DNA of 64,000 nucleotides. Origin: Chrysomallon squamiferum. Lineage: Eukaryota; Mollusca; Gastropoda; Neomphalida; Peltospiridae. The notes beneath the pieces are model-generated. The model was given only the letters and a program-made list of their open reading frames with translations, ran no database searches and had not been told where the DNA came from. The translations under genes were made by a program, and so were the position numbers. Positions 1-47,000 of this stretch are shown here, piece after piece (position 1 is the first letter of the stretch; the number at the start of each line of letters is the position of its first letter). The stretch is taken from NCBI GenBank assembly GCA_012295275.1, contig CM022672.1, positions 45,568 to 109,567 on the forward strand, in the 5' to 3' direction.

Positions 1-568
1 CTAGTTTATACACAAATCCCGGTTAGTCAAAGAATCGTTTTCCCTGAGTGCACTCTGAGTGTGTGTGTTTGTGTGTACAGACACGGACATATACATATAC
101 ACATACATATACATATACTATTACTCAATGTGTGCAGAAAAGTAACACACAAATAAATAAATAAATAATAAAAAAGTAAATAATAATACCTGACACATTT
201 ATTTCTATATCTTTGTAATTCACTTGTTTACATTTTAAACACAAATTAAATACAAAAATAAACGAAGTGAAAATTCATAATAAAAAATACAAATTTATTT
301 ATCTGTTTTTCGTTTATTTATATCTCATGCATAAATAAATAAAGAGTTCCTAGTCTTAGTAAAAGAAAATGGATAAATAAATAAGTTCTTATTTTCATGT
401 CTAACAAACAGGATATACAGACATAATTTATCTACATATTATGTTTCATGTACAAAAAAAAAAAAAAAAATAAAAAAATAAAAAATGCATAAATAAATAA
501 GTAAATAAATAAATAAACAATAACAGTAATAACAATAATCAAGAAATGAGATGTTTAAATACATTATG

Positions 569-652
569 CACGTGTTTCACAGAAATGAGTCAGTTAGAAA
601 TCAAAAATTTCAAATCGAGTGTGAATGACGTCATTACTGTTGGCTGACGTCA
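569..652. promoter_or_regulatory. Repeated CRE/AP-1/E-box cluster (first of nine copies)
   Basis: Within 84 bp there is an E-box CACGTG (569-574), an AP-1 site TGAGTCA (586-592) and two perfect CRE palindromes TGACGTCA (626-633 and 645-652). The CREs are 19 bp apart from start to start, about two helical turns. The first CRE of each later copy starts at 2109, 3527, 4814, 6120, 7439, 8732, 10021 and 11322. The second always starts 19 bp later, and both cores are intact in all nine copies. These motifs are known binding sites for CREB/ATF, AP-1 and bHLH factors. Activity here is inference, because the flanks are equally well conserved by recent duplication. In the PHR units the cluster lies about 200 bp beyond the stop of one PHR exon and about 550-650 bp before the next copy on the minus strand. 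Confidence 0.5.
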
Positions 653-678
653 TCAAAAATACAAAACGTAAAACGACA

Positions 679-729
<51 letters not shown>

Positions 730-795
730 AGAAATAAACAAAAACAAACAAAGAAGTAAACAAAAACGAAATAAATAAAACAAATAAACAAATGA

Positions 796-983
796 ACCCC
801 AACCCCCCCAACCCCAACCCCCTAACCCTAACCCCCCCTAACCCTAACCCTAACCCTAACCCTAACCCTAACCCTAACCCTAACCCTAACCCTAACCCTA
901 ACCCTAACCCCAACCCCTACCGCAACCCCTACACCGACACCAACACCAACCCCAACCCTAACCATGACCCTAACCCTAACCCT
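796..983. repeat. Interstitial telomeric tract (CCCTAA)n, first type-1 unit
   Basis: About a dozen perfect CCCTAA hexamers occupy roughly 835-910. They are flanked by variant C-rich copies on both sides (CCCCAA, CCGCAA, ACACCG). TTAGGG is the usual metazoan telomere repeat. Unique sequence and further tandem units follow, so this is interstitial and not a chromosome end. Confidence 0.92.
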
Positions 984-1318
984 GGTATTTCTAAAAGGAC
1001 ATTTACTGAAAGTTTGAATTTCTACTGTGTCGTGTAAAAGCAACTCGATATGAACGGGTACTCAAAGGCTATGAAAACAAGCGAAGCGATAGCTTATATT
1101 ATTTATACTGGCCTGTACGATCTTCTTATAGTCATGACTTTCAGACAGTCTGGTGCGACAAAACATTCATTGAAGATATGGATAAACAGTTTAAATCTAC
1201 AGAAAACAAAATAATATTAAGATAATGAAAGAACAGTTGTATGTTGTTTCCAAAGGCTCGCTTTAGTTTTACATATGTTGTGTTAATGTGGGAAACACGA
1301 TATGTATTCTCATTGTAG

Positions 1319-1322
<4 letters not shown>

Positions 1323-1376
<54 letters not shown>
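1323..1376. repeat. (CA)n microsatellite, first type-1 unit
   Basis: An uninterrupted CA dinucleotide run. The matching position in the next unit, near 2763-2797, is shorter, so the tract varies in length between neighbouring units. Confidence 0.95.
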
Positions 1377-1377
<1 letters not shown>

Positions 1378-1929
1378 ATGGAAGGAATAATTATAGTGAG
1401 ATGTAATTATAAATACTGCTGTGTGTGGTGTATTAGGGGAGGTTTGTGATTTACAGGGTTTGTGACTTCCTGCTACCCCTAGTTTATACACAAATCCCGG
1501 TTAGTCAAAGAATCGTTTTCCCTGAGTGCACTCTGAGTGTGTGTGTTTGTGTGTACAGACACGGACATATACATATACACATACATATACATATACTATT
1601 ACTCAATGTGTGCAGAAAAGTAACACACAAATAAATAAGTAAATAACAAAAAGTAAATAATAATACCTGACACATTTATTTCTATATCTTTGTAATTCAC
1701 TTGTTTACATTTTAAACACAAATTAAATACAAAAATAAACGAAGTGAAAATTCATAATAAAAAATACAAATTTATTTATCTGTTTTTCGTTTATTTATAT
1801 CTCATGCATAAATAAATAAAGAGTTCCTAGTCTTAGTAAAAGAAAATGGATAAATAAATAAGTTCTTATTTTCATGTCTAACAAACAGGATATACAGACA
1901 TAATTTATCTACATATTATGTTTCATGTA

Positions 1930-1970
<41 letters not shown>

Positions 1971-2173
1971 CATAAATAAATAAGTAAATAAATAAATAAA
2001 CAATAACAGTAATAACAATAATCAAGAAATGAGATGTTTAAATACATTATGCACGTGTTTCACAGAAATGAGTCAGTTAGAAATCAAAAATTTCAAATCG
2101 AGTGTGAATGACGTCATTACTGTTGGCTGACGTCATCAAAAATACAAAACGTAAAACGACATAAATAAATAAA

Positions 2174-2210
<37 letters not shown>

Positions 2211-2278
2211 ACAAACAAACAAAGAAGTAAACAAAGAACGAAATAAACAAATAAACAAATGAACCAAACCCCAAATAA

Positions 2279-2425
2279 ATAACCCTAAAAAAAACCCTAA
2301 CCCTAACCCTAACCCTAACCCTAACCCTAACCCTAACCCTAACCCTAACCCCAACCCCTACCGCAACCCCTACACCGACACCAACACCAACCCCAACCCT
2401 AACCATGACCCTAACCCTAACCCTG
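2279..2425. repeat. Interstitial telomeric tract (CCCTAA)n, second type-1 unit
   Basis: Eleven or so CCCTAA hexamers followed by the same degenerate C-rich tail as the first unit. The leading edge differs (AACCCTAAAAAAAACCC), so the tract boundary is not fixed between copies. Confidence 0.9.
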
Positions 2426-2760
2426 GTATTTCTAAAAGGACATTTACTGAAAGTTTGAATTTCTACTGTGTCGTGTAAAAGCAACTCGATATGAACGGGT
2501 ACTCAAAGGCTATGAAAACAAGCGAAGCGATAGCTTATATTATTTATACTGGCCTGTACGATCTTCTTATAGTCATGATTTTCAGACAGTCTGGTGCGAC
2601 AAAACATTCATTGAAGATATCGATAAACAGTTTAAATCTACAGAAAACAAAATAATATTAAGATAATGAAAGAACAGTTGTATGTTGTTTCCAAAGGCTC
2701 GTTTTAGTTTTACATATGTTGTGTTAATGTGGGAAACACGATATGTATTCTCATTGTAGT

Positions 2761-2798
<38 letters not shown>

Positions 2799-3748
2799 AT
2801 GGAAGGAATAATTATAGTGAGATGTAATTATAAATACTGCTGTGTGTGGTGTATCAGGGGAGGTTTGTGATTTACAGTGTTTGTGACTTCCTGCTACCCT
2901 AGTTTATACACAAATCCCGGTTAGTCAAAGAATCGTTTTCCCTGAGTGCACTCTGAGTGTGTGTGTTTGTGTGTACAGACACGGACATATACATATACAC
3001 ATACATATACATATACTATTACTCAATGTGTGCAGAAAAGTAACACACAAATAAATAAGTAAATAACAAAAAGTAAATAATAATACCTGACACATTTATT
3101 TCTATATCTTTGTAATTCACTTGTTTACATTTTAAACACAAATTAAATACAAAAATAAACGAAGTGAAAATTCATAATAAAAAATACAAATTTATTTATC
3201 TGTTTTTCGTTTATTTATATCTCATGCATAAATAAATAAACAAAGAGTTCCTAGTCTTAGTAAAAGAAAATGGATAAATAAATAAGTTCTTATTTTCATG
3301 TCTAACAAACAGGATATACAGACATAATTTATCTACATATTATGTTTCATGTACAAAAATAAAATAAAAAAATAAAAAATAAAAAATGCAGAAATAAATA
3401 AGTAAATAAATAAATAAACAATAACAGTAATAACAATAATCAAGAAATGAGATGTTTAAATACATTATGCACGTGTTTCACAGAAATGAGTCAGTTAGAA
3501 ATCAAAAATTTCAAATCGAGTGTGAATGACGTCATTACTGTTGGCTGACGTCATCAGAAATACAAAACGTAAATCGACATAAATAAATAAATAAATAAAT
3601 AAATAAAGAAACAAACAAACAAAGAAGTAAACAAAGAACGAAATAAACAAATAAACAAATGAACAAAATAAATAAATAAATAAAAAAACAAATGAAAATA
3701 TGAGCCCAGTAATAACTAAACCTGACAGTATTTGAACGATGGTCTTTT

Positions 3749-4096
3749 TTACACCCAAAATTCCAAAGCAGGTATTTGTCCGTTTGTCACATCTGTACTA
3801 AGTTTCCTCTTACTGAATTTAGATTTGTGTGAGTAAGAAAATCTACAAACAAAAGAGTCTACAACAATTTCTGATTCTCCTTTACCTCCACGCCATGTGT
3901 CTCCCTCAGTGTTAACAAACAAGCTGTACTCAGTGTCTTTAGTAATCTTCAGTGGACGTCTGAACACGACGTGAAACACGCCAGACACGTGTTCATATCT
4001 CTGTGTCAGTCTAGACCCGTCCAGTATTTCGTCCGTTCTTGTGTAGGTGACGAAGGCGCTGACGTCGTAGTTTCGAGGGTCATGTTGACCGTACAA
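3749..4096 (-). pseudogene. PHR-domain exon, copy 1 (edge copy)
   Basis: The frame reads a PHR (PAM/Highwire/RPM-1) domain, from LLYGQHDP through YEHVSGVFHVVFRRPLKI and YSLFVNTEGDTWRGGKGE to a C-terminus TNGQIPALEFWV and stop. In known proteins such as BTBD and MYCBP2 relatives, PHR is a beta-sandwich protein-interaction domain. The frame continues upstream through VDDAITFSF at about 4130, but this edge copy lacks the CACAG acceptor-like site of the inner copies because two bases are missing near 4188. No BTB or other partner domain is near. The copy is most likely a duplicated gene fragment. Expression cannot be judged. Confidence 0.6.
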
Positions 4097-4305
4097 CAGA
4101 AATCCGCGAAGTAAAGCGTTTTTGTTGAAAGAGAAAGTAATGGCATCATCTACTTGACCAGAAAATTACAAATATCCATGTTCACCAAATGTGTATTGTA
4201 ATCTATGGTTTAGGCTTCTCCGCAGTACTCATCTTTGAGTTGAAAGGTGAAAGATCTTCATCATTGCTCACCCAGTGTTTGAAAATCTTGTTTTCTTCTG
4301 TGTCT

Positions 4306-4337
4306 AACCCTAACCCTAACCCTAACGCTAAACCCTC
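4306..4337. repeat. Short telomeric tract at the end of PHR unit 1
   Basis: Three CCCTAA repeats, a CGCTAA variant and a terminal AACCCTC. Equivalent tracts close each PHR unit near 5615, 6926, 8229, 9525, 10816 and 12107, with two to four hexamers and the same CGCTAA variant. On the minus strand the tract directly precedes the open frame that leads into the PHR domain. Confidence 0.85.
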
Positions 4338-4630
4338 AATAACAAAAAGTAAATAATAATACCTGACACATTTATTTCTATATCTTTGTAATTCACCTGT
4401 TTACATTTTAAACACAAATTAAATACAAAAATAAACGAAGTGAAAATTCATAATAAAAAATACAAATTTATTTATCTGTTTTTCGTTTATTTATATCTCA
4501 TGCATAAATAAATAAACAAAGAGTTCCTAGTCTTAGTAAAAGAAAATGGATAAATAAATAAGTTCTTATTTTCATGTCTAACAAACAGGATATACAGACA
4601 TAATTTATCTACATATTATGTTTCATGTAG

Positions 4631-4668
<38 letters not shown>

Positions 4669-4866
4669 AAAAATGCATAAATAAATAAGTAAATAAATAA
4701 ATAAACAATAACAGTAATAACAATAATCAAGAAATGAGATGTTTAAATACATTATGCACGTGTTTCACAGAAATGAGTCAGTTAGAAATCAAAAATTTCA
4801 AATCGAGTGTGAATGACGTCATTACTGTTGGCTGACGTCATCAGAAATACAAAACGTAAAACGACA

Positions 4867-4905
<39 letters not shown>

Positions 4906-5056
4906 ACAAATAAACAAAAAACAAAGAAAGAAACAAAAACAAAGAACGAAATAAACAAATAAACAAATGAACAAAATAAATAAATAAATAAAAAAACAAA
5001 TGAAAATATGAGCCCAGTAATAACTAAACCTGACAGTATTTGAACGATGGTCTTTT

Positions 5057-5479
5057 TTACACCCAAAATACCAAAGCAGGTATTTGTCCGTTTGTCACAT
5101 CTGTACTAAGTTTCCTCTTACTGAATTTAGATTTGTGTGAGTAAGAAAATCTACAAACAAAAGAGTCTACAACAATTTCTGATTCTCCTTTACCTCCACG
5201 CCATGTGTCTCCCTCAGTGTTAACAAACAAGCTGTACTCAGTGTCTTTAGTAATCTTCAGTGGACGTCTGAACACGACGTGAAACACGCCAGACACGTGT
5301 TCATATCTCTGTGTCAGTCTAGACCCGTCCAGTATTTCGTCCGTTCTTGTGTAGGTGACGAAGGCGCTGACGTCGTAGTTTTGTGGGTCATGTTGACCGT
5401 ACAACAGAAATCCGCGAAGTAAAGCGTTTTTGTTGAAAGAGAAAGTAATGGCATCATCTACTTGACCAGAACATGACAA
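5057..5479 (-). pseudogene. PHR-domain exon, copy 2
   Basis: About 140 residues form a full PHR domain: a VDDAITFSF strand near the N-terminus, the LRGFLLYG core and the conserved end TNGQIPALVFWV before the stop. No ATG fits the domain start. The frame extends back to RFGEHGY just after an acceptor-like CACAG near 5502, so this looks like an internal or terminal exon. Beyond that, the same frame meets a TAG. An AATAAA-rich tract follows the stop. It is either a dead exon copy or the last exon of an unseen gene. Confidence 0.6.
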
Positions 5480-5934
5480 ATATCCATGTTCACCAAATCT
5501 GTGTATTGTAATCTATGTTTTAGGTTTCTCAGCAGTTCTCATCTTTGAGTTGAAAGGTGAAAGATCTTCATCATTGCTCACCCAGTGTTGAAAATCTTGT
5601 TTTCTTCTGTGTCTAACCCTAACCCTAACCCTAACGCTAAACCCTCAATAACAAAAAGTAAATAATAATACCTGACACATTTATTTCTATATCTTTGTAA
5701 TTCACCTGTTTACATTTTAAACACAAATTAAATACAAAAATAAACGAAGTGAAAATTCATAATAAAAAATACAAATTTATTTATCTGTTTTTCGTTTATT
5801 TATATCTCATGCATAAATAAATAAACAAAGAGTTCCTAGTCTTAGTAAAAGAAAATGGATAAATAAATAAGTTCTTATTTTCATGTCTAACAAACAGGAT
5901 ATACAGACATAATTTATCTACATATTATGTTTCA

Positions 5935-5974
<40 letters not shown>

Positions 5975-6172
5975 AAAAATGCATAAATAAATAAGTAAAT
6001 AAATAAATAAACAATAACAGTAATAACAATAATCAAGAAATGAGATGTTTAAATACATTATGCACGTGTTTCACAGAAATGAGTCAGTTAGAAATCAAAA
6101 ATTTCAAATCGAGTGTGAATGACGTCATTACTGTTGGCTGACGTCATCAGAAATACAAAACGTAAAACGACA

Positions 6173-6219
<47 letters not shown>

Positions 6220-6364
6220 AAAAAAAACAAACAAACAAAGAAGTAAACAAAGAACGAAATAAACAAATAAACAAATGAACAAAATAAATAAATAAATAAA
6301 AAAACAAATGAAAATATGAGCCCAGTAATAACTAAACCTGACAGTATTTGAACGATGGTCTTTT

Positions 6365-6769
6365 TTACACCCAAAATACCAAAGCAGGTATTTGTCCGTT
6401 TGTCACATCTGTACTAAGTTTCCTCTTACTGAATTTAGATTTGTGTGAGTAAGAAAATCTACAAACAAAAGAGTCTACAACAATTTCTGATTCTCCTTTA
6501 CCTCCACGCCATGTGTCTCCCTCAGTGTTAACAAACAAGCTGTACTCAGTGTCTTTAGTAATCTTCAGTGGACGTCTGAACACGACGTGAAACACGCCAG
6601 ACACGTGTTCATATCTCTGTGTCAGTCTAGACCCGTCCAGTATTTTGTCCGTTCTTGTGTAGGTGACGAAGGCGCTGACGTCGTAGTTTTGTGGGTCATG
6701 TTGACCGCACAACAGAAATCCGCGAAGTAAAGCGTTTTTTTGTCTTGAAAGAGAAAGTAATGGCATCAT
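6365..6769 (-). pseudogene. PHR-domain exon, copy 3, frameshifted
   Basis: Same domain as its neighbours from KNALLRGFLL to the stop. Four extra bases near 6730 break the frame in the first beta strand: plus strand GCGTTTTTTTGTCTTGAAAG, 20 bases, against 16 in other copies. The inserted stretch combines the two alternative versions seen elsewhere (TTTTTGTTG in copies 1, 2 and 4; TTTGTCTTG in copies 5-7). This suggests a crossover or conversion point within the array, although an assembly blend is possible. Confidence 0.6.
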
Positions 6770-7253
6770 CTACTTGACCAGAACATGACAAATATCCATG
6801 TTCACCAAATCTGTGTATTGTAATCTATGTTTTAGGTTTCTCAGCAGTTCTCATCTTTGAGTTGAAAGGTGAAAGATCTTCATCATTGCTCACCCAGTGT
6901 TTGAAAATCTTGTTTTCTTCTGTCCCTAACCCTAACCCTAACCCTAACGCTAAACCCTCAATAACAAAAAGTAAATAATAATACCTGACACATTTATTTC
7001 TATATCTTTGTAATTCACCTGTTTACATTTTAAACACAAATTAAATACAAAAATAAACGAAGTGAAAATTCATAATAAAAAATACAAATTTATTTATCTG
7101 TTTTTCGTTTATTTATATCTCATGCATAAATAAATAAACAAAGAGTTCCTAGTCTTAGTAAAAGAAAATGGATAAATAAATAAGTTCTTATTTTCATGTC
7201 TAACAAACAGGAGGATATACAGACATAATTTATCTACATATTATGTTTTCATG

Positions 7254-7301
<48 letters not shown>

Positions 7302-7491
7302 AATAAATAAATAATAAATAAATAAATAAACAATAACAGTAATAACAATAATCAAGAAATGAGATGTTTAAATACATTATGCACGTGTTTCACAGAAATG
7401 AGTCAGTTAGAAATCAAAAATTTCAAATCGAGTGTGAATGACGTCATTACTGTTGGCTGACGTCATCAGAAATACAAAACGTAAAACGACA

Positions 7492-7526
<35 letters not shown>

Positions 7527-7669
7527 AAAAAAAACAAAAACAAAAAAAAACAAAGAAAACGAAATAAACAAATAAACAAATGAACAAAATAAATAAATAA
7601 ATAAAAAAACAAATGAAAATATGAGCCCAGTAATAACTAAACCTGACAGTATTTGAACGATGGTCTTTT

Positions 7670-8092
7670 TTACACCCAAAATACCAAAGCAGGTATTTGT
7701 CCGTTTGTCACATCTGTACTAAGTTTCCTCTTACTGAATTTAGATTTGTGTGAGTAAGAAAATCTACAAACAAAAGAGTCTACAACAATTTCTGATTCTC
7801 CTTTACCTCCACGCCATGTGTCTCCCTCAGTGTTAACAAACAAGCTGTACTCAGTGTCTTTAGTAATCTTCAGTGGACGTCTGAACACGACGTGAAACAC
7901 GCCAGACACGTGTTCATATCTCTGTGTCAGTCTAGACCCGTCCAGTATTTTGTCCGTTCTTGTGTAGGTGACGAAGGCGCTGACGTCGTAGTTTCGTGGG
8001 TCATGTTGACCGTACAACAGAAATCCGCGAAGTAAAGCGTTTTTGTTGAAAGAGAAAGTAATGGCATCATCTACTTGACCAGAACATGACAA
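7670..8092 (-). pseudogene. PHR-domain exon, copy 4
   Basis: Complete PHR frame with the NKN variant at the first strand and HDPRNY instead of HDPQNY. An extra T in the plus-strand run near 8130 shifts the upstream frame relative to copies 2 and 3. The domain itself is intact, including the TNGQIPALVFWV end. Confidence 0.6.
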
Positions 8093-8546
8093 ATATCCAT
8101 GTTCACCAAATCTGTGTATTGTAATCTATGTTTTTAGGTTTCTCAGCAGTTCTCATCTTTGAGTTGAAAGGTGAAAGATCTTCATCATTGCTCACCCAGT
8201 GTTTGAAAATCTTGTTTTCTTCTGTGTCTAACCCTAACCCTAACGCTAAACCCTCAATAACAAAAAGTAAATAATAATACCTGACACATTTATTTCTATA
8301 TCTTTGTAATTCACCTGTTTACATTTTAAACACAAATTAAATACAAAAATAAACGAAGTGAAAATTCATAATAAAAAATACAAATTTATTTATCTGTTTT
8401 TCGTTTATTTATATCTCATGCATAAATAAATAAACAAAGAGTTCCTAGTCTTAGTAAAAGAAAATGGATAAATAAATAAGTTCTTATTTTCATGTCTAAC
8501 AAACAGGATATACAGACATAATTTATCTACATATTATGTTTCATTT

Positions 8547-8586
<40 letters not shown>

Positions 8587-8795
8587 AAAAATGCATAAAT
8601 AAATAAGTAAATAAATAAATAAACAATAACAGTAATAACAATAATCAAGAAATGAGATGTTTAAATACATTATGCACGTGTTTCACAGAAATGAGTCAGT
8701 TAGAAATCAAAAATTTCAAATCGAGTGTGAATGACGTCATTACTGTTGGCTGACGTCATCAGAAATACAAAACGTAAAACGACATAAATAAAAAA

Positions 8796-8826
<31 letters not shown>

Positions 8827-8965
8827 AAAAAAAAAACAAAGAAGTAAACAAAGAACGAAATAAACAAATAAACAAATGAACAAAATAAATAAATAAATAA
8901 AAAAACAAATGAAAATATGAGCCCAGTAATAACTAAACCTGACAGTATTTGAACGATGGTCTTTT

Positions 8966-9388
8966 TTACACCCAAAATTCCAAAGCAGGTATTTGTCCGT
9001 TTGTCACATCTGTACTAAGTTTCCTCTTACTGAATTTAGATTTGTGTGAGTAAGAAAATCTACAAACAAAAGAGTCTACAACAATTTCTGATTCTCCTTT
9101 ACCTCCACGCCATGTGTCTCCCTCAGTGTTAACAAACAAGCTGTACTCAGTGTCTTTAGTAATCTTCAGTGGACGTCTGAACACGACGTGAAACACGCCA
9201 GACACGTGTTCATATCTCTGTGTCAGTCTAGACCCGTCCAGTATTTTGTCCGTTCTTGTGTAGGTGACGAAGGCGCTGATGTCGTAGTTTTGTGGGTCAT
9301 GTTGACCGCACAACAGAAATGCGCGAAGTAAAGCGTTTGTCTTGAAAGAGAAAGTAATGGCATCATCTACTTGACCAGAACATGACAA
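8966..9388 (-). pseudogene. PHR-domain exon, copy 5
   Basis: Complete PHR frame with several private changes: RAFLLCG instead of RGFLLYG, YDISAF instead of YDVSAF, and PALEFWV at the end, shared only with copy 1. It uses the KTN version of the first strand, like copies 6 and 7. Confidence 0.6.
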
Positions 9389-9841
9389 ATATCCATGTTC
9401 ACCAAATCTGTGTATTGTAATCTATGTTTTAGGTTTCTCAGCAGTTCTCATCTTTGAGTTGAAAGGTGAAAGATCTTCATCATTGCTCACCCAGTGTTTG
9501 AAAATCTTGTTTTCTTCTGTGTCTAACCCTAACCCTAACCCTAACGCTAAACCCTCAATAACAAAAAGTAAATAATAATACCTGACACATTTATTTCTAT
9601 ATCTTTGTAATTCACCTGTTTACATTTTAAACACAAATTAAATACAAAAATAAACGAAGTGAAAATTCATAATAAAAAATACAAATTTATTTATCTGTTT
9701 TTCGTTTATTTATATCTCATGCATAAATAAATAAACAAAGAGTTCCTAGTCTTAGTAAAAGAAAATGGATAAATAAATAAGTTCTTATTTTCATGTCTAA
9801 CAAACAGGATATACAGACATAATTTATCTACATATTATGTT

Positions 9842-9875
<34 letters not shown>

Positions 9876-10073
9876 AAAAATGCATAAATAAATAAGTAAA
9901 TAAATAAATAAACAATAACAGTAATAACAATAATCAAGAAATGAGATGTTTAAATACATTATGCACGTGTTTCACAGAAATGAGTCAGTTAGAAATCAAA
10001 AATTTCAAATCGAGTGTGAATGACGTCATTACTGTTGGCTGACGTCATCAGAAATACAAAACGTAAAACGACA

Positions 10074-10112
<39 letters not shown>

Positions 10113-10256
10113 AAAAAAAAAAACAAACAAAGAAGTAAACAAAGAACGAAATAAACAAATAAACAAATGAACAAAATAAATAAATAAATAAAAAAACAAA
10201 TGAAAATATGAGCCCAGTAATAACTAAACCTGACAGTATTTGAACGATGGTCTTTT

Positions 10257-10679
10257 TTACACCCAAAATACCAAAGCAGGTATTTGTCCGTTTGTCACAT
10301 CTGTACTAAGTTTCCTCTTACTGAATTTAGATTTGTGTGAGTAAGAAAATCTACAAACAAAAGAGTCTACAACAATTTCTGATTCTCCTTTACCTCCACG
10401 CCATGTGTCTCCCTCAGTGTTAACAAACAAGCTGTACTCAGTGTCTTTAGTAATCTTCAGTGGACGTCTGAACACGACGTGAAACACGCCAGACACGTGT
10501 TCATATCTCTGTGTCAGTCTAGACCCGTCCAGTATTTTGTCCGTTCTTGTGTAGGTGACGAAGGCGCTGACGTCGTAGTTTTGTGGGTCATGTTGACCGT
10601 ACAACAGAAATCCGCGAAGTAAAGCGTTTGTCTTGAAAGAGAAAGTAATGGCATCATCTACTTGACCAGAACATGACAA
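10257..10679 (-). pseudogene. PHR-domain exon, copy 6
   Basis: Complete PHR frame with KTN at the first strand, HDPQNYDVSAF and TDKILDG. The upstream CACAG acceptor-like site is present near 10703. There is no disabling change inside the domain. Upstream, the same frame is closed by TAG, as in copy 2. Confidence 0.6.
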
Positions 10680-11139
10680 ATATCCATGTTCACCAAATCT
10701 GTGTATTGTAATCTATGTTTTAGGTTTCTCAGCAGTTCTCATCTTTGAGTTGAAAGGTGAAAGATCTTCATCATTGCTCACCCAGTGTTTGAAAATCTTG
10801 TTTTCTTCTGTGTCTAACCCTAACCCTAACCCTAACGCTAAACCCTCAATAACAAAAAGTAAATAATAATACCTGACACATTTATTTCTATATCTTTGTA
10901 ATTCACCTGTTTACATTTTAAACACAAATTAAATACAAAAATAAACGAAGTGAAAATTCATAATAAAAAATACAAATTTATTTATCTGTTTTTCGTTTAT
11001 TTATATCTCATGCATAAATAAATAAACAAAGAGTTCCTAGTCTTAGTAAAAGAAAATGGATAAATAAATAAGTTCTTATTTTCATGTCTAACAAACAGGA
11101 TATACAGACATAATTTATCTACATATTATGTTTCATGTA

Positions 11140-11183
<44 letters not shown>

Positions 11184-11374
11184 AATAAATAAATAAGTAA
11201 ATAAATAAATAAACAATAACAGTAATAACAATAATCAAGAAATGAGATGTTTAAATACATTATGCACGTGTTTCACAGAAATGAGTCAGTTAGAAATAAA
11301 AAATTTCAAATCGAGTGTGAATGACGTCATTACTGTTGGCTGACGTCATCAGAAATACAAAACGTAAAACGACA

Positions 11375-11409
<35 letters not shown>

Positions 11410-11548
11410 AAAACAAAAAAAAAGAAGTAAACAAAGAACGAAATAAACAAATAAACAAATGAACAAAATAAATAAATAAATAAAAAAACAAATGAAAATA
11501 TGAGCCCAGTAATAACTAAACCTGACAGTATTTGAACGATGGTCTTTT

Positions 11549-11971
11549 TTACACCCAAAATACCAAAGCAGGTATTTGTCCGTTTGTCACATCTGTACTA
11601 AGTTTCCTCTTACTGAATTTAGATTTGTGTGAGTAAGAAAATCTACAAACAAAAGAGTCTACAACAATTTCTGATTCTCCTTTACCTCCACGCCATGTGT
11701 CTCCCTCAGTGTTAACAAACAAGCTGTACTCAGTGTCTTTAGTAATCTTCAGTGGACGTCTGAACACGACGTGAAACACGCCAGACACGTGTTCATATCT
11801 CTGTGTCAGTCTAGACCCGTCCAGTATTTCGTCCGTTCTTGTGTAGGTGACGAAGGCGCTGACGTCGTAGTTTTGTGGGTCATTTTGACCGTACAACAGA
11901 AATCCGCGAAGTAAAGCGTTTGTCTTGAAAGAGAAAGTAATGGCATCATCTACTTGACCAGAAAATGACAA
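11549..11971 (-). pseudogene. PHR-domain exon, copy 7 (edge copy)
   Basis: Complete PHR frame with MSFSG for MSCSG and QNDPQNY for QHDPQNY. Like copy 1 it lacks the CACAG acceptor-like bases, and its upstream flank (GGCTTCTCCGCAGTACTC on plus) matches copy 1 better than the inner copies. The two outermost copies therefore share ancestral-looking states that the inner copies have lost. Confidence 0.6.
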
Positions 11972-12692
11972 ATATCCATGTTCACCAAATGTGTATTGTA
12001 ATCTATGTTTTAGGCTTCTCCGCAGTACTCATCTTTGAGTTGAAAGGTGAAAGATCTTCATCATTGCTCACCCAGTGTTTGAAAATCTTGTTTTCTTCTG
12101 TGTCTAACCCTAACCCTAACCCTAACGCTAAACCCTCAATAACAAAAAGTAAATAATAATACCTGACACATTTATTTCTATATCTTTGTAATTCACTTGT
12201 TTACATTTTAAACACAAATTAAATACAAAAATAAACGAAGTGAAAATTCATAATAAAAAATATCTTTGTAATTCACCTATTTCGACGAGTGCAAAACGTG
12301 GGGCCGTCGGGGTGCCGCAAAAACGCCCAACATTTACCAAAGGTGGAACAACTCGTTTCCGACAAATTTTGGAAACGTGCAAAAATTTTGAAAAACATGT
12401 TTTTGAAAATTTGCTCGATTTTTTCAAACGCATTTAAGTGCCGCCGCCGCCGCCCAAGGGGAACAACTCGTTTCCGACACGTGCACAAAAAACGCACATA
12501 TTTTTGAAAATTTGCTCGTTTTTTTTTCAAACGCATTTTCTAAAGGTGCAGCACCTTTGGAAAATGTTGGAAACGATTTTGCCACACTCGCCCCGACGGC
12601 GCGCACCTTTTGCACACGTTGAAATATTTTTCCCGACAGGACGGAATAGTGCCACACGGATTTTCAACTTTTGAAAATCGAATTTTTTCAAG

Positions 12693-41172: not shown

Positions 41173-41889
41173 AAGTGCCACGCGGCTTTTCGATTTTTGA
41201 AAACCTAATATTTAGAAGACGGGATAAAAATGCGAGGAGTACCTTTTTCAAAGTGGAATAACTTTTTCTCCGCACGAGGCAAAAATGGGGCGCACCTACC
41301 CAAAAGTGGAGGCAAAGGCTGCCCCACACGGGTGAAAAGTGCCGCACGCCCCACCCAAGGGGAACAACTCGTTTCCGACACCTGCAAATATTTTGAAAAT
41401 TTTCTCGTGGTTTTTTTCACACGCATTTTCAAAATGTGCCGCACTTTTAGTAAATGTTGGAAACGTTTTTGCCACACTCGCCCCGACGGCGCGAACCTTT
41501 TGCACACGTTGAAATATTTTTCCCGACCCACGGGTTTTCAATTTTTGAAAACCATATATTTTCAAGACGCGATTGAAATGCGAGGGTTACCTTATTCAAA
41601 GTGGAATAACTTTTTCTCCACACCTGGCAAAAACGGGGCGCACCTAGCCAAAAGTGGGGCAATGGTTGCCCGACACGGTTGAAAAGTGCCGCACGCCGCA
41701 CCCAAGGGAAACAGCTCGTTTCCGCTACGTGCAAAAAAAACGCTCATATTTTGAAAATTTGCTCGTTTTTTTTTGTTTTTTCACACGCATTTAAATAATG
41801 TGCCGCACCTTTTGTGAATGTTGGAAACGCTTTTTCCACACTCGCCCCTACGGCGCGCTCCTTTTGCACACATTGGAATATTTTTCCAG
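41173..41889 (+). repeat. Decayed 374 bp satellite, two units
   Basis: Two diverged units in array-1 orientation keep most landmarks: GTGCCACGCGG, GGTGAAAAGTGCCGCACGCC, GGGGAACAACTCGTTTCCG, GTTGGAAACG, CGCCCCGACGGCGCG. The first unit carries array-2 states (TACCTTTTTC, CGCCCCACCC) and the second carries array-1 states (TACCTTATTC, CGCCGCACCC). Divergence is far above that within either array. Confidence 0.88.
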
Positions 41890-42255
41890 ATCCTAACTAA
41901 CCCTAACCCTAGTCTTAACCATAACCATAAAAACCGTGCTAACCCTAAGCGTAACTCTGACCCTAACCCTTTAACCGTATCCCTAACTCTATTACTAATC
42001 CCAACCCTAACCCTAACCTGACCCTAATACTAACCCTAACCCTAATCCCTAACCCTATCCATTCTAACCCTAACCCAAACCCTATCCATACTAATCCTAA
42101 CCATACTAACGCTAACCCCTATCCCTAACCCTAACCCTAAATACTTTAAATAAACCTAATCCTAATACTAACCCTAATCCAAAATTCTAACCCGTAACCC
42201 TAATAAGTTTAAATAAACCTAACCTTAATACTAACCCTAACCCTCACCATTATCA
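41890..42255. repeat. Degenerate interstitial telomeric tract
   Basis: Dozens of CCCTAA-like hexamers with many substitutions (CCATAA, CCTAAT, CCGTAA), directly abutting the decayed satellite. It is the oldest-looking telomeric block in the window. Confidence 0.88.
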
Positions 42256-44005: not shown

Positions 44006-47000
44006 TTACTGGGGCAGCGACAGAAGTGTCTGCTGACCTTTTGGCAGATACACAATGTTGCGGGAACGTGATAACTGGTAGGCAATGTCCTCTGCAGCTT
44101 CAATCTTCCTCAACTCAACAAGTCCCTCCCCTGTTGCAGCAAACGCCTTTGCCAAGAGAATAGCAGCTGTTGAGTCTCCCTCAGCCATAGTGATTGCAGC
44201 TATCTTCTGCTGCTCAGCCTGAAAAACAAACCACGTACAAATCTCACAACCATGCTGCATTTTGTGACAGATTAGTTTGTTACAAATATCACAAATCAAA
44301 AAAGAACCAAAAGAAATATACAGGGTGTCCCAGAAGTCACGCACCATGAAGATTTTTATTTAGATACATATGAATAAAAATTTTAATAATAATAATCATA
44401 ACAAATGCTCAAATTGCTTGCCCTCTGCATTGATACATACTTCAATTCTGTTTATAAAACTGTTTTTTACTCTGTTGAGGGTTTCGCTACTAATTTATGT
44501 GTATCTAAATAAAAATCTTCATGGTGCGTGACTTCTGGGACACCTTGTATATACAGTTTACTATGAAAGAATGAAATTAAATTTTATACAAACTATGACT
44601 TACTTTTTCAACAACAAATCTTGCTCTTTCTGCATCCTGCTGTGCCACCTGTTTCAACTCTACTGCCTCTGTGAATTCACGACCAAATGTCAAGTGGGTC
44701 TGAAACAAACAATCAGTTACATGTTTTAATAAGACTAACTGAATGTGTGACAGTAACAGAATGAATGTGCAACAAGCATGTTGATTATATGGCATTAAAG
44801 AACTCTTACCAGTGAAATGTCATCAAGGATGAGACCAAAGTTGATAGCTCGTTCTGTAAGAGCTTCATTGACTTTTTGTGAGACAAGTTCTCTCTGAGTG
44901 ATTAACTCACTAGCATCAAACTGAGCCTGCAACACATGAAATGTAACACACCACCATGAATTATAACATATGTAACACATCCCCATGAAATGTAACATCT
45001 GTAACACATCACCATGAAATGTGACATGTAACACATCCCAATGAAATGTAACATCTGTAACATATTACCATGAAATGTAACATCAATAACGTATCTCCAT
45101 GAAATATAACAGATGCAACATAATGCTGTGAAGTAAAACATTTGTTACACATTGCTGTCAAAAACTTAACTATAAGAATACTTCCCCATCAGCAAATCTA
45201 ACCTGGCTATGAGACATTTGGTCAAAGCTGAGGGGGAAACCATTAGGAATTCAAGCCCTAAAAAATATAGTGTGTCGCATACCTGTATAAATTAAATAAT
45301 GTGCCTGTCATAAAGCAAATGTACCTGTCACCAAATATTAAATATTGAATAAAATAATAATAATAATAAAATTAGTACTTTCAAAAACGTTTTGCTATTA
45401 ATAAGAATAACTCATTACATAACAGATATAAGTCATTTCATCAGTTTAATGTGCATATTTTAATCAAATATATTTGAAGACCTCTAAAGAGGATAATATA
45501 ACAAAAAGCACCAAAAGCTTTATGTAACTCTTTACAATATGTAACAACAACCAAATAAACCAGTAACTAGACACTGATAACTGTTGAAAATGTAAGAGCA
45601 GGAATTTCTAGCCAAAATTATAATACTTACCACCACAGCTTTTAGGACCTCGTTAGTGATTGATGGTAATACACGGTCATCATAATCCTGGCCAAGATTT
45701 GTGTAAATCTGAGGCAGTTTGTCTGCCATTGGTCGAAAGAGAATTCTCAAAGTAATGTTCACATTCTGAAGATCTGTAAAGCAAAAACATTAGTATTACA
45801 AGATCACAATAAAATAAAAATATAAATACTCTCAATATTGGGATTTTAGATGTGTGAGAAAAAACAAAATACAAAAATTCAAAGGTCAGTTGTGATCTTT
45901 GAGAAAAATACTTGATGTTCAGACACTTTCATGTTTAACACAAACTAACCTTTACTTCCAGTTACAGATGGGACGTTTCTTGGTCGAGAGCGAATATCAA
46001 AGATAATAGGCCGTTGTACCCAAGGTATCAGAAAATGAGTTCCCTCCCCTGTCACAGTGTCCTGCACACCACGAAATCTGTCAAATATGACAGCTCGGTG
46101 CCCTCCATCAACTACAAAGTGAAAAAAATGTTTATTTAAACTAATTACTAGCTATAATAATGATCTGCTTTAAATTTTTTAAATCTGAATCTGAATTATA
46201 TTTTGTCTTCAAATACCAAACAAATAACAATGCAGAGAAGCATTCAATTGGGTATGGGTAGAAACCCAGATCTGGATTGTCTAGACTATTCTATTCATAC
46301 TTCTTGTTTTTTACAGTACAGTTAATGGTTACTTGAGAAATTTTCACTTAGTCCTGATTCTATCACAAGTCACAGAGACATTGTGATTAATCAAGCATAA
46401 GTGAACATTTACTAGATATGTGACAAAAGATGAGAGTGCACTGCTGCAGAAAGTCACCTAATTGTTGTCACATTTTTGCTTACCTTAAAGAGAGTTCCCT
46501 CAATCAGATAACTGTTTCATCATTCTTTTTAAACATTTTCAAAAACAAATACTATGACATAACATACATATTCAGCTTTATCAATGTTTTAATTTTTTAA
46601 CGTTTTTTATAAGCAAAGAATCAACAGACAAATTTACTGTTTCAGAATGATCACTGCATGTCCAAAGTAAGCTTAATCAAGACTTTAAATCATATACAAA
46701 TTACAAAATATTATGCATTTATCTTATAGTCTGCCAAATTTCATAGAAATATTTATGGTACTAGGTATTTAATTTTGTTAATGTGTGGTATTCTCAACAA
46801 ACAATGCAAATGAAAACAAGATGATTACAGCTGATGTCTTATAAGTTTGATGTTTCGTTTACATTAATATATGAAGGACCCGACAAATTATCAGTTTAAA
46901 AAAATTAGCTTTTGTATATTGGTTTAATTTCTAAGAAGTTTTTGTGAATTAGATAATTAAGACATAAGATATATTTTACTCTTTGAGCAGTATAGTATGA

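Follow-up and report, generated by a model that had tools for sequence, protein, structure and literature searches.

In Caenorhabditis elegans, the template for alternative lengthening of telomeres TALT1 (CB4856, DL226) is described as a 1464-bp gene part held between telomere-like tracts of the same orientation (PMC4595603), and it occurs in five or six tandem copies (PMC9066243). From mouse embryonic stem cells, mTALT is reported as a head-to-tail non-telomeric unit whose telomeric borders run in one direction (PMC7889907), and it is well known that telomeric tracts occur both where breaks have been repaired and inside subtelomeric repeats (PMC6410037, PMC5615363). An array of similar layout is presented here from the gastropod Chrysomallon squamiferum, in a stretch of 64,000 nucleotides (the window; C8:45568-109567 of an assembly of 404.6 Mb in 22 contigs), with all positions below given as window coordinates. 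Its units join the end of a BTB-BACK-PHR gene, the 3' flank of that gene and a telomeric tract, and the whole is probably the 3' end of one such gene repeated in tandem, linked head to tail through telomeric repeats. Proteins of this type were put at four to seven per metazoan genome in a 2005 report (PMC1257465), and BTBD6-like expansions of 56 and 35 copies are reported from vent snails (PMC7736800). Searches of an open-licence paper library brought up no title or abstract describing such an array from a PHR gene.

The array resembles TALT1 in its gene-bearing unit of similar length, its same-orientation telomeric tracts and its tandem copies. The two differ in content and setting: the TALT1 unit, as described, comprises a promoter with the first exon, is located at a chromosome end, has its donor at an internal site and, in survivors of telomerase deletion, spread to further ends, whereas the snail array holds a gene's 3' end, lies in a window that starts 45.6 kb into its contig and has a nearest relative, on contig C14, that is 95% identical rather than fully so. 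mTALT is reported as a unit of about 7.4 kb in telomerase-deficient cell lines, whereas the snail array comes from a germ-line assembly, and the comparison between them is one of sequence layout alone. Unlike short interstitial telomeric sequences and subtelomeric repeats, this gene-derived tandem array carries a tract at every join and shows two breakpoints from one locus.

Anatomy of the array and its relatives in the genome

Seven type B units lie in tandem (starts 3068, 4344, 5653, 6966, 8262, 9563 and 10854), spaced 1276-1313 bp apart and pairwise 98.6-99.8% identical over 1128 columns of unique sequence. Each consists of a last coding stretch of about 557 nt, a stop codon, a 3' flank of about 640 nt and a TTAGGG tract; a (CTAACC)n tract stands at every join, roughly 25-35 nt per type B unit. 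The preliminary description, which spoke of seven tandem units of ~1.3 kb with a telomeric tract in each, is borne out on these points, while the extent it gave proves too short: two more units and one partial unit with the same flank (type A) occupy 1-3067.

A six-frame search of the assembly returned 151 matches (150 of 177 candidates scored), comprising the array and many other places, with a best identity of 77%. At least 59 PHR matches outside the array, each of at least 56% identity, lie in stop-free open frames of at least 340 aa; the lack of an intact parent gene, which the preliminary description would have counted against itself, is thus not what is seen, as relatives with open frames exist. 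Twenty places were fetched, namely 19 relatives (68-74% by tblastn) and the distant L033 (35%), which is excluded from all counts out of 19; the relatives are the best-scoring ones plus a few picked for other contigs, a non-random sample. Their frame continues upstream of PHR through a linker and BACK, and in L014, the one relative scanned, PHR, BACK and 41 residues of the BTB end share one frame. In this one example the family compares with BTBD1/2/3/6-type proteins, and its size of at least 59 exceeds the four to seven per genome reported in 2005; the array copies themselves are fragments. The linker is coding in the translations of three relatives, and its DNA aligns through in the nine relatives aligned to the array. 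Set against vertebrate BTBD6, the linker match is weak alone (70 of 1000 shuffles are equally good, and an earlier gapped test gave chance), and the coding status of the linker is therefore settled by the relatives from the same genome rather than by the BTBD6 comparison.

In 4 of the 19 relatives the whole type B unit is matched by a single unbroken alignment at 79-80%. Relative to the stop codon, this alignment begins about 554-560 nt upstream and ends 615-641 nt downstream in L021, L028 and L030; in L020 the corresponding distances are 509 and 656 nt. With the remaining 15 the unit aligns partly or in several pieces. The palindrome TGACGTCA, which reads as a cAMP response element (CRE), occurs 18 times in the window, two per each of the nine common segments, a count that none of 100 shuffles reaches (mean 0.68). 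A pair of these palindromes with 19-nt spacing lies within 260 nt after the stop (about +92 to +178) in 13 of the 19 relatives, and at least one site follows the stop in 16. By this comparison, the AT-rich half of the unit and its CRE pair are the gene family's own 3' flank, and the only foreign part of a type B unit is the telomeric tract of roughly 30 nt. The CRE cluster that the preliminary description assigned to each unit is accordingly there as two sites per segment, and it belongs to the native flank, not to a foreign repeat. The suggestion of a gene fragment captured by a subtelomere-like repeat came near the truth in an inverted form, the repeat being itself the gene's 3' end with a small telomeric tract. 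The idea of a foreign satellite that captured a PHR exon is rejected, since the AT-rich half is native 3' flank, collinear with that of the relatives.

Within the family, the ratio of nonsynonymous to synonymous differences per site (pN/pS) is 1.13 for the PHR part versus 0.65 for the BTB end and BACK (18 genes, 153 pairs, uncorrected; L033 and L024 excluded). Across PHR subregions it ranges from 0.57 to 2.77 (relatives L014-L032; contigs C4, C5, C8 and C10-C14), and the high PHR value may reflect diversifying selection on a recognition domain.

Coding remnants and variation between copies

The PHR domain (PF08005) is found on the minus strand in all seven copies, with 45.9 to 67.7 bits and E values of 2e-18 to 1e-11 against a curated cut-off of 23.6 bits, and the best PDB sequence match is BTBD2 (E 1.6e-7). 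The profile hit on which the earlier proposal depended is thus present in every copy. Copies 2, 4, 5 and 6 keep a full 151-aa frame covering profile positions 2-150, which lowers to four of seven the six whole domains previously claimed. In copy 1 the match is reduced to 13-150, in copy 3, with its split frame, to 25-150, and in copy 7, which lacks the same two nucleotides as copy 1, to 11-150. Small indels lie between the upstream linker stretch and PHR, or inside it, in copies 1, 2, 4 and 7. The open frame runs 32 codons upstream of PHR and ends at a TAG common to all seven copies, at a position where 18 of the 19 relatives have CAG and one has CAT. The copies hold linker and PHR only, and none has an intact BTB-BACK-PHR frame; the stand-alone PHR exon of the preliminary description does not survive, given that the relatives' frame extends upstream through linker and BACK where the copies have TAG.

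Among the copies, 16 ungapped codons vary (two gapped codons were set aside), of which 13 change nonsynonymously, one to a stop, and 3 synonymously; the neutral expectation is 21-28% synonymous, or 3.4-4.4 of 16. These differences fit an absence of selection, though with such small numbers weak constraint is still compatible. The preliminary description would have counted a coding divergence equal to that of the flanks against itself; the two are not equal, since divergence is higher in the linker and the N half of PHR, while the C half shows the low level of the flanks. Incompatibility of 24 among 45 informative site pairs implies that the copies exchange segments; the end units have alleles in common from which the inner units differ.

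An expressed multi-exon array, with PHR exons joined to an upstream exon to give a variable PHR protein, is the least probable of the explanations weighed. It could draw on the full domain frame of four copies and on a donor-like site in the flank with 8 of 9 consensus letters (one copy). Against it stand the lack of a methionine in the 151-aa frame, the common TAG, the neutral pattern and poor acceptors: by common splice rules, the AGs at the domain start are preceded by 40% pyrimidines over 20 nt, compared with a mean of 47% before 56 AGs of the unit, and the sole pyrimidine-rich AG nearby (75%) leads into the common TAG in the domain frame, both in one copy. The relatives, moreover, read through linker, BACK and PHR in one frame, which leaves no reason to expect a splice site where the domain begins. 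The acceptor-to-acceptor splicing array proposed before finds no support on these grounds. Judged from its sequence, the coding part is a pseudogene fragment; no protein product is expected, and if the array has an effect, it would act through recombination, chromatin or non-coding transcription.

Copy-specific variation bears equally on an assembly artefact, in which copies were collapsed or falsely expanded. Such an error is highly improbable: even though the window opens inside the repeat right after 10,000 N and some fetched stretches hold N runs, the copies carry ordered substitutions, indels and poly-A lengths of their own, the two unit types follow in order, and the end units have their common alleles.

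The predicted structure of a PHR copy has a mean pLDDT (predicted local distance difference test) of 50.3, its best fold rows are mannosidases and not PHR structures, and it was used neither way; the fold search with this model gave no match at E 0.001 or less. A large protein collection likewise gave no match at E 0.001 or less, a result that excludes little because of database size and length limits, and no match for the study region was obtained in Rfam, plasmids or viral contigs.

Telomeric joins and the origin of the array

The type A tracts (178 and 132 nt) sit at a different breakpoint from those of type B. All 41 telomeric dimers of the window have the orientation of a left chromosome end, with 0 in the opposite one. 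Variant letters of the tracts are shared within each unit type, so the tracts were copied along with the units. From 4301 to 2797 (1505 bp) the sequence is collinear with relatives, with gaps. The adjoining 2425-2763 has only short matches in the 20 fetched places and 39 other matching rows genome-wide at 75-87%. Of these, 11 follow a listed PHR match at a distance of 1-3 kb, oriented relative to it as in the window, and at least 2 lie upstream of one in the opposite orientation. Types A and B are accordingly read as portions of a single gene end that overlap, type A taking in a part of the flank further downstream, and both are closed by telomeric repeats; for 2425-2763 this reading is likely. 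A second captured gene was considered for a 71-aa frame in type A and rejected: it has no usable Pfam or PDB sequence match, a fold search with its model (mean pLDDT 61.6) brought up nothing at E 0.001 or less, and its DNA matches places that are often near PHR genes.

That one locus shows two breakpoints, both sealed by telomeric repeats, fits a model in which breaks were capped or patched and the units then multiplied by way of telomeric homology. The breaks would have lain downstream of the gene and received telomeric repeats; the tracts would then have supplied homology for break-induced replication, unequal exchange or rolling-circle copying, by which the gene end was duplicated, a route also proposed for TALT arrays, and later exchange would keep the inner copies nearly identical. 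Telomere-mediated copying of the units is in this sense likely. An ordinary tandem repeat, in which a gene end with an interstitial telomeric insertion was multiplied by unequal crossing-over and the tract remained passive, appears unlikely. It is favoured by the abundance of internal telomeric tracts in the genome and by the homogenised inner copies and older edge alleles, which fit unequal exchange, but one insertion by chance would not lead one to expect two unit types that differ in breakpoint and yet end in same-orientation tracts, and two adjacent telomeric hexamers lie nearby in none of the 20 fetched relatives.

In layout the array has two features of a TALT-type array, namely a non-telomeric unit bordered by one-orientation tracts and present in tandem copies (seven of type B, two of type A). 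It is tentatively conceivable that it represents a natural TALT-type structure beyond the published nematode and mouse cases, in which the end of a family member broke, was capped and was amplified in the germ line; a terminal TALT-type origin is a minority reading here. Several observations weigh against the proposed explanation, and in part against a strictly terminal, TALT-type origin. At least 27.9 kb of non-telomeric sequence, together with N stretches, lies to the left of the window, which itself starts 45.6 kb from the start of contig C8 (35.8 Mb). Across the genome, (CCCTAA)6 gives 386 overlapping matches, and all 100 matches listed (C1-C5) are internal; internal tracts being common, a tract alone is no proof of a chromosome end. 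No spread to other places is seen, since among the best 40 of 540 candidates only a telomere-free relic on C14 exceeds 90% along the flank. The clustering of substitutions is also unexplained by the model: the linker and the N half of PHR make up 271 of the 1128 columns but hold 15 of the 20 substitutions (P 1.7e-6). Either a pair of founder haplotypes or an exchange with other sequences may account for it.

In that flank search (best 40 of 540 candidates), the array itself was returned as nine full segments and one partial, followed by the C14 place at 95%, with all other matches at 86% or below except a 90-bp piece at 92%. The C14 relic (L055, G000:C14:345556-346177) is 93% identical over 957 columns, which span roughly the first 0.9 kb of flank and break off at the stop codon; no PHR was found there, and no telomeric array occurs in the 7 kb read. 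The 374-bp satellite that also borders the array lies there at a distance of about 300 bp from the match end. On this comparison the C14 place is best taken as a gene relic, a sister of the source locus and not a clear donor.

Surroundings of the array and significance

The coordinates of the array are collected in Table 1. The array adjoins 10,000 N on its left, where the window opens inside the repeat, with 5,200 more N further left, and the readable sequence left of the window holds no two adjacent telomeric hexamers. On the right it is cut by the 374-bp satellite, which runs with short breaks over 12436-33384. This satellite fills 4 of 13 contig ends sampled (800 bp each, of 44 ends), and a telomeric array was found in none of the 13.

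Table 1. Features of the array in window coordinates
Feature	Position	Strand	Basis
Type A unit, 3' flank part	171..799	minus	sequence alignment to array and relatives
Telomeric tract, 178 nt, closing type A unit	806..983	minus	
Type A unit: 3' flank from telomeric end to (ATAA)n region, including a stretch resembling 2425-2763	984..2290	minus	
Telomeric tract, 132 nt, closing type A unit	2293..2424	minus	
Copy 1 flank, downstream continuation	2425..3067	minus	2797-3067 collinear with relatives; 2425-2763 matches elsewhere, many near PHR genes
Seven type B units, each BTB-BACK-PHR gene coding end, 3' flank and short telomeric tract	3068..12143	minus	repeat comparison; collinear with relatives
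Copy 1 3' flank, AT-rich, CRE pair at 3527 and 3546; equivalents after each copy	3068..3744	minus	native to gene family
Copy 1 coding remnant (linker and PHR): common TAG, extra in-frame TAA, 2-nt deletion at domain start	3745..4301	minus	
Telomeric tract closing type B unit	4304..4336	minus	
Copy 2 coding remnant: common TAG, 1-nt linker deletion, PHR open (151 aa)	5053..5610	minus	
Copy 3 coding remnant: common TAG, 4-nt insertion in PHR frame	6361..6923	minus	
Copy 4 coding remnant: common TAG, 1-nt linker insertion, PHR open (151 aa)	7666..8225	minus	
Copy 5 coding remnant: common TAG, PHR open (151 aa)	8962..9520	minus	
Copy 6 coding remnant: common TAG, PHR open (151 aa)	10253..10811	minus	
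Copy 7 coding remnant: common TAG, 2-nt deletion at domain start	11545..12101	minus	
Other type B tracts	5613-5645, 6924-6958, about 8228-8248, 9523-9555, 10814-10846, 12104-12136	minus	
Flank piece, truncated, right array end, followed by 374-bp satellite	12144..12262	minus	

Further observations concern the satellite, other telomeric repeats and the neighbouring sequence. The satellite runs in plus orientation to about 28.2 kb and is inverted from about 28.4 kb, and older copies at 41337-41890 adjoin degenerate telomeric repeats at 41939-42205. Elsewhere in the genome, internal telomeric clusters with irregular spacing and one orientation occur, for example at C5:3462929-3473358 and C4:11243430-11256812. 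An inverted repeat of 60 nt, 95% complementary, with arms 117 nt apart and TATA-like ends (44316-44552), resembles a small DNA transposon. The minus-strand exons at 44006-44935 look in translation like those of a prohibitin gene; the piece 44009-44359 gave no Pfam match above cut-off.

The locus is best filed as a tandem array of pseudogene fragments with telomeric joins, TALT-like in layout. It also carries a warning for annotation, as four of the seven could be mistaken for exons that carry a domain, yet all are pseudogene pieces. If the proposed mechanism holds, a gene tail has been turned into a repeat family by way of telomeric DNA, and TALT-like arrays would arise in natural genomes beyond the published cases. 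Should the TALT-type reading be true, the array and the many internal telomeric tracts of this genome would together be a record of repeated end repair in the lineage.

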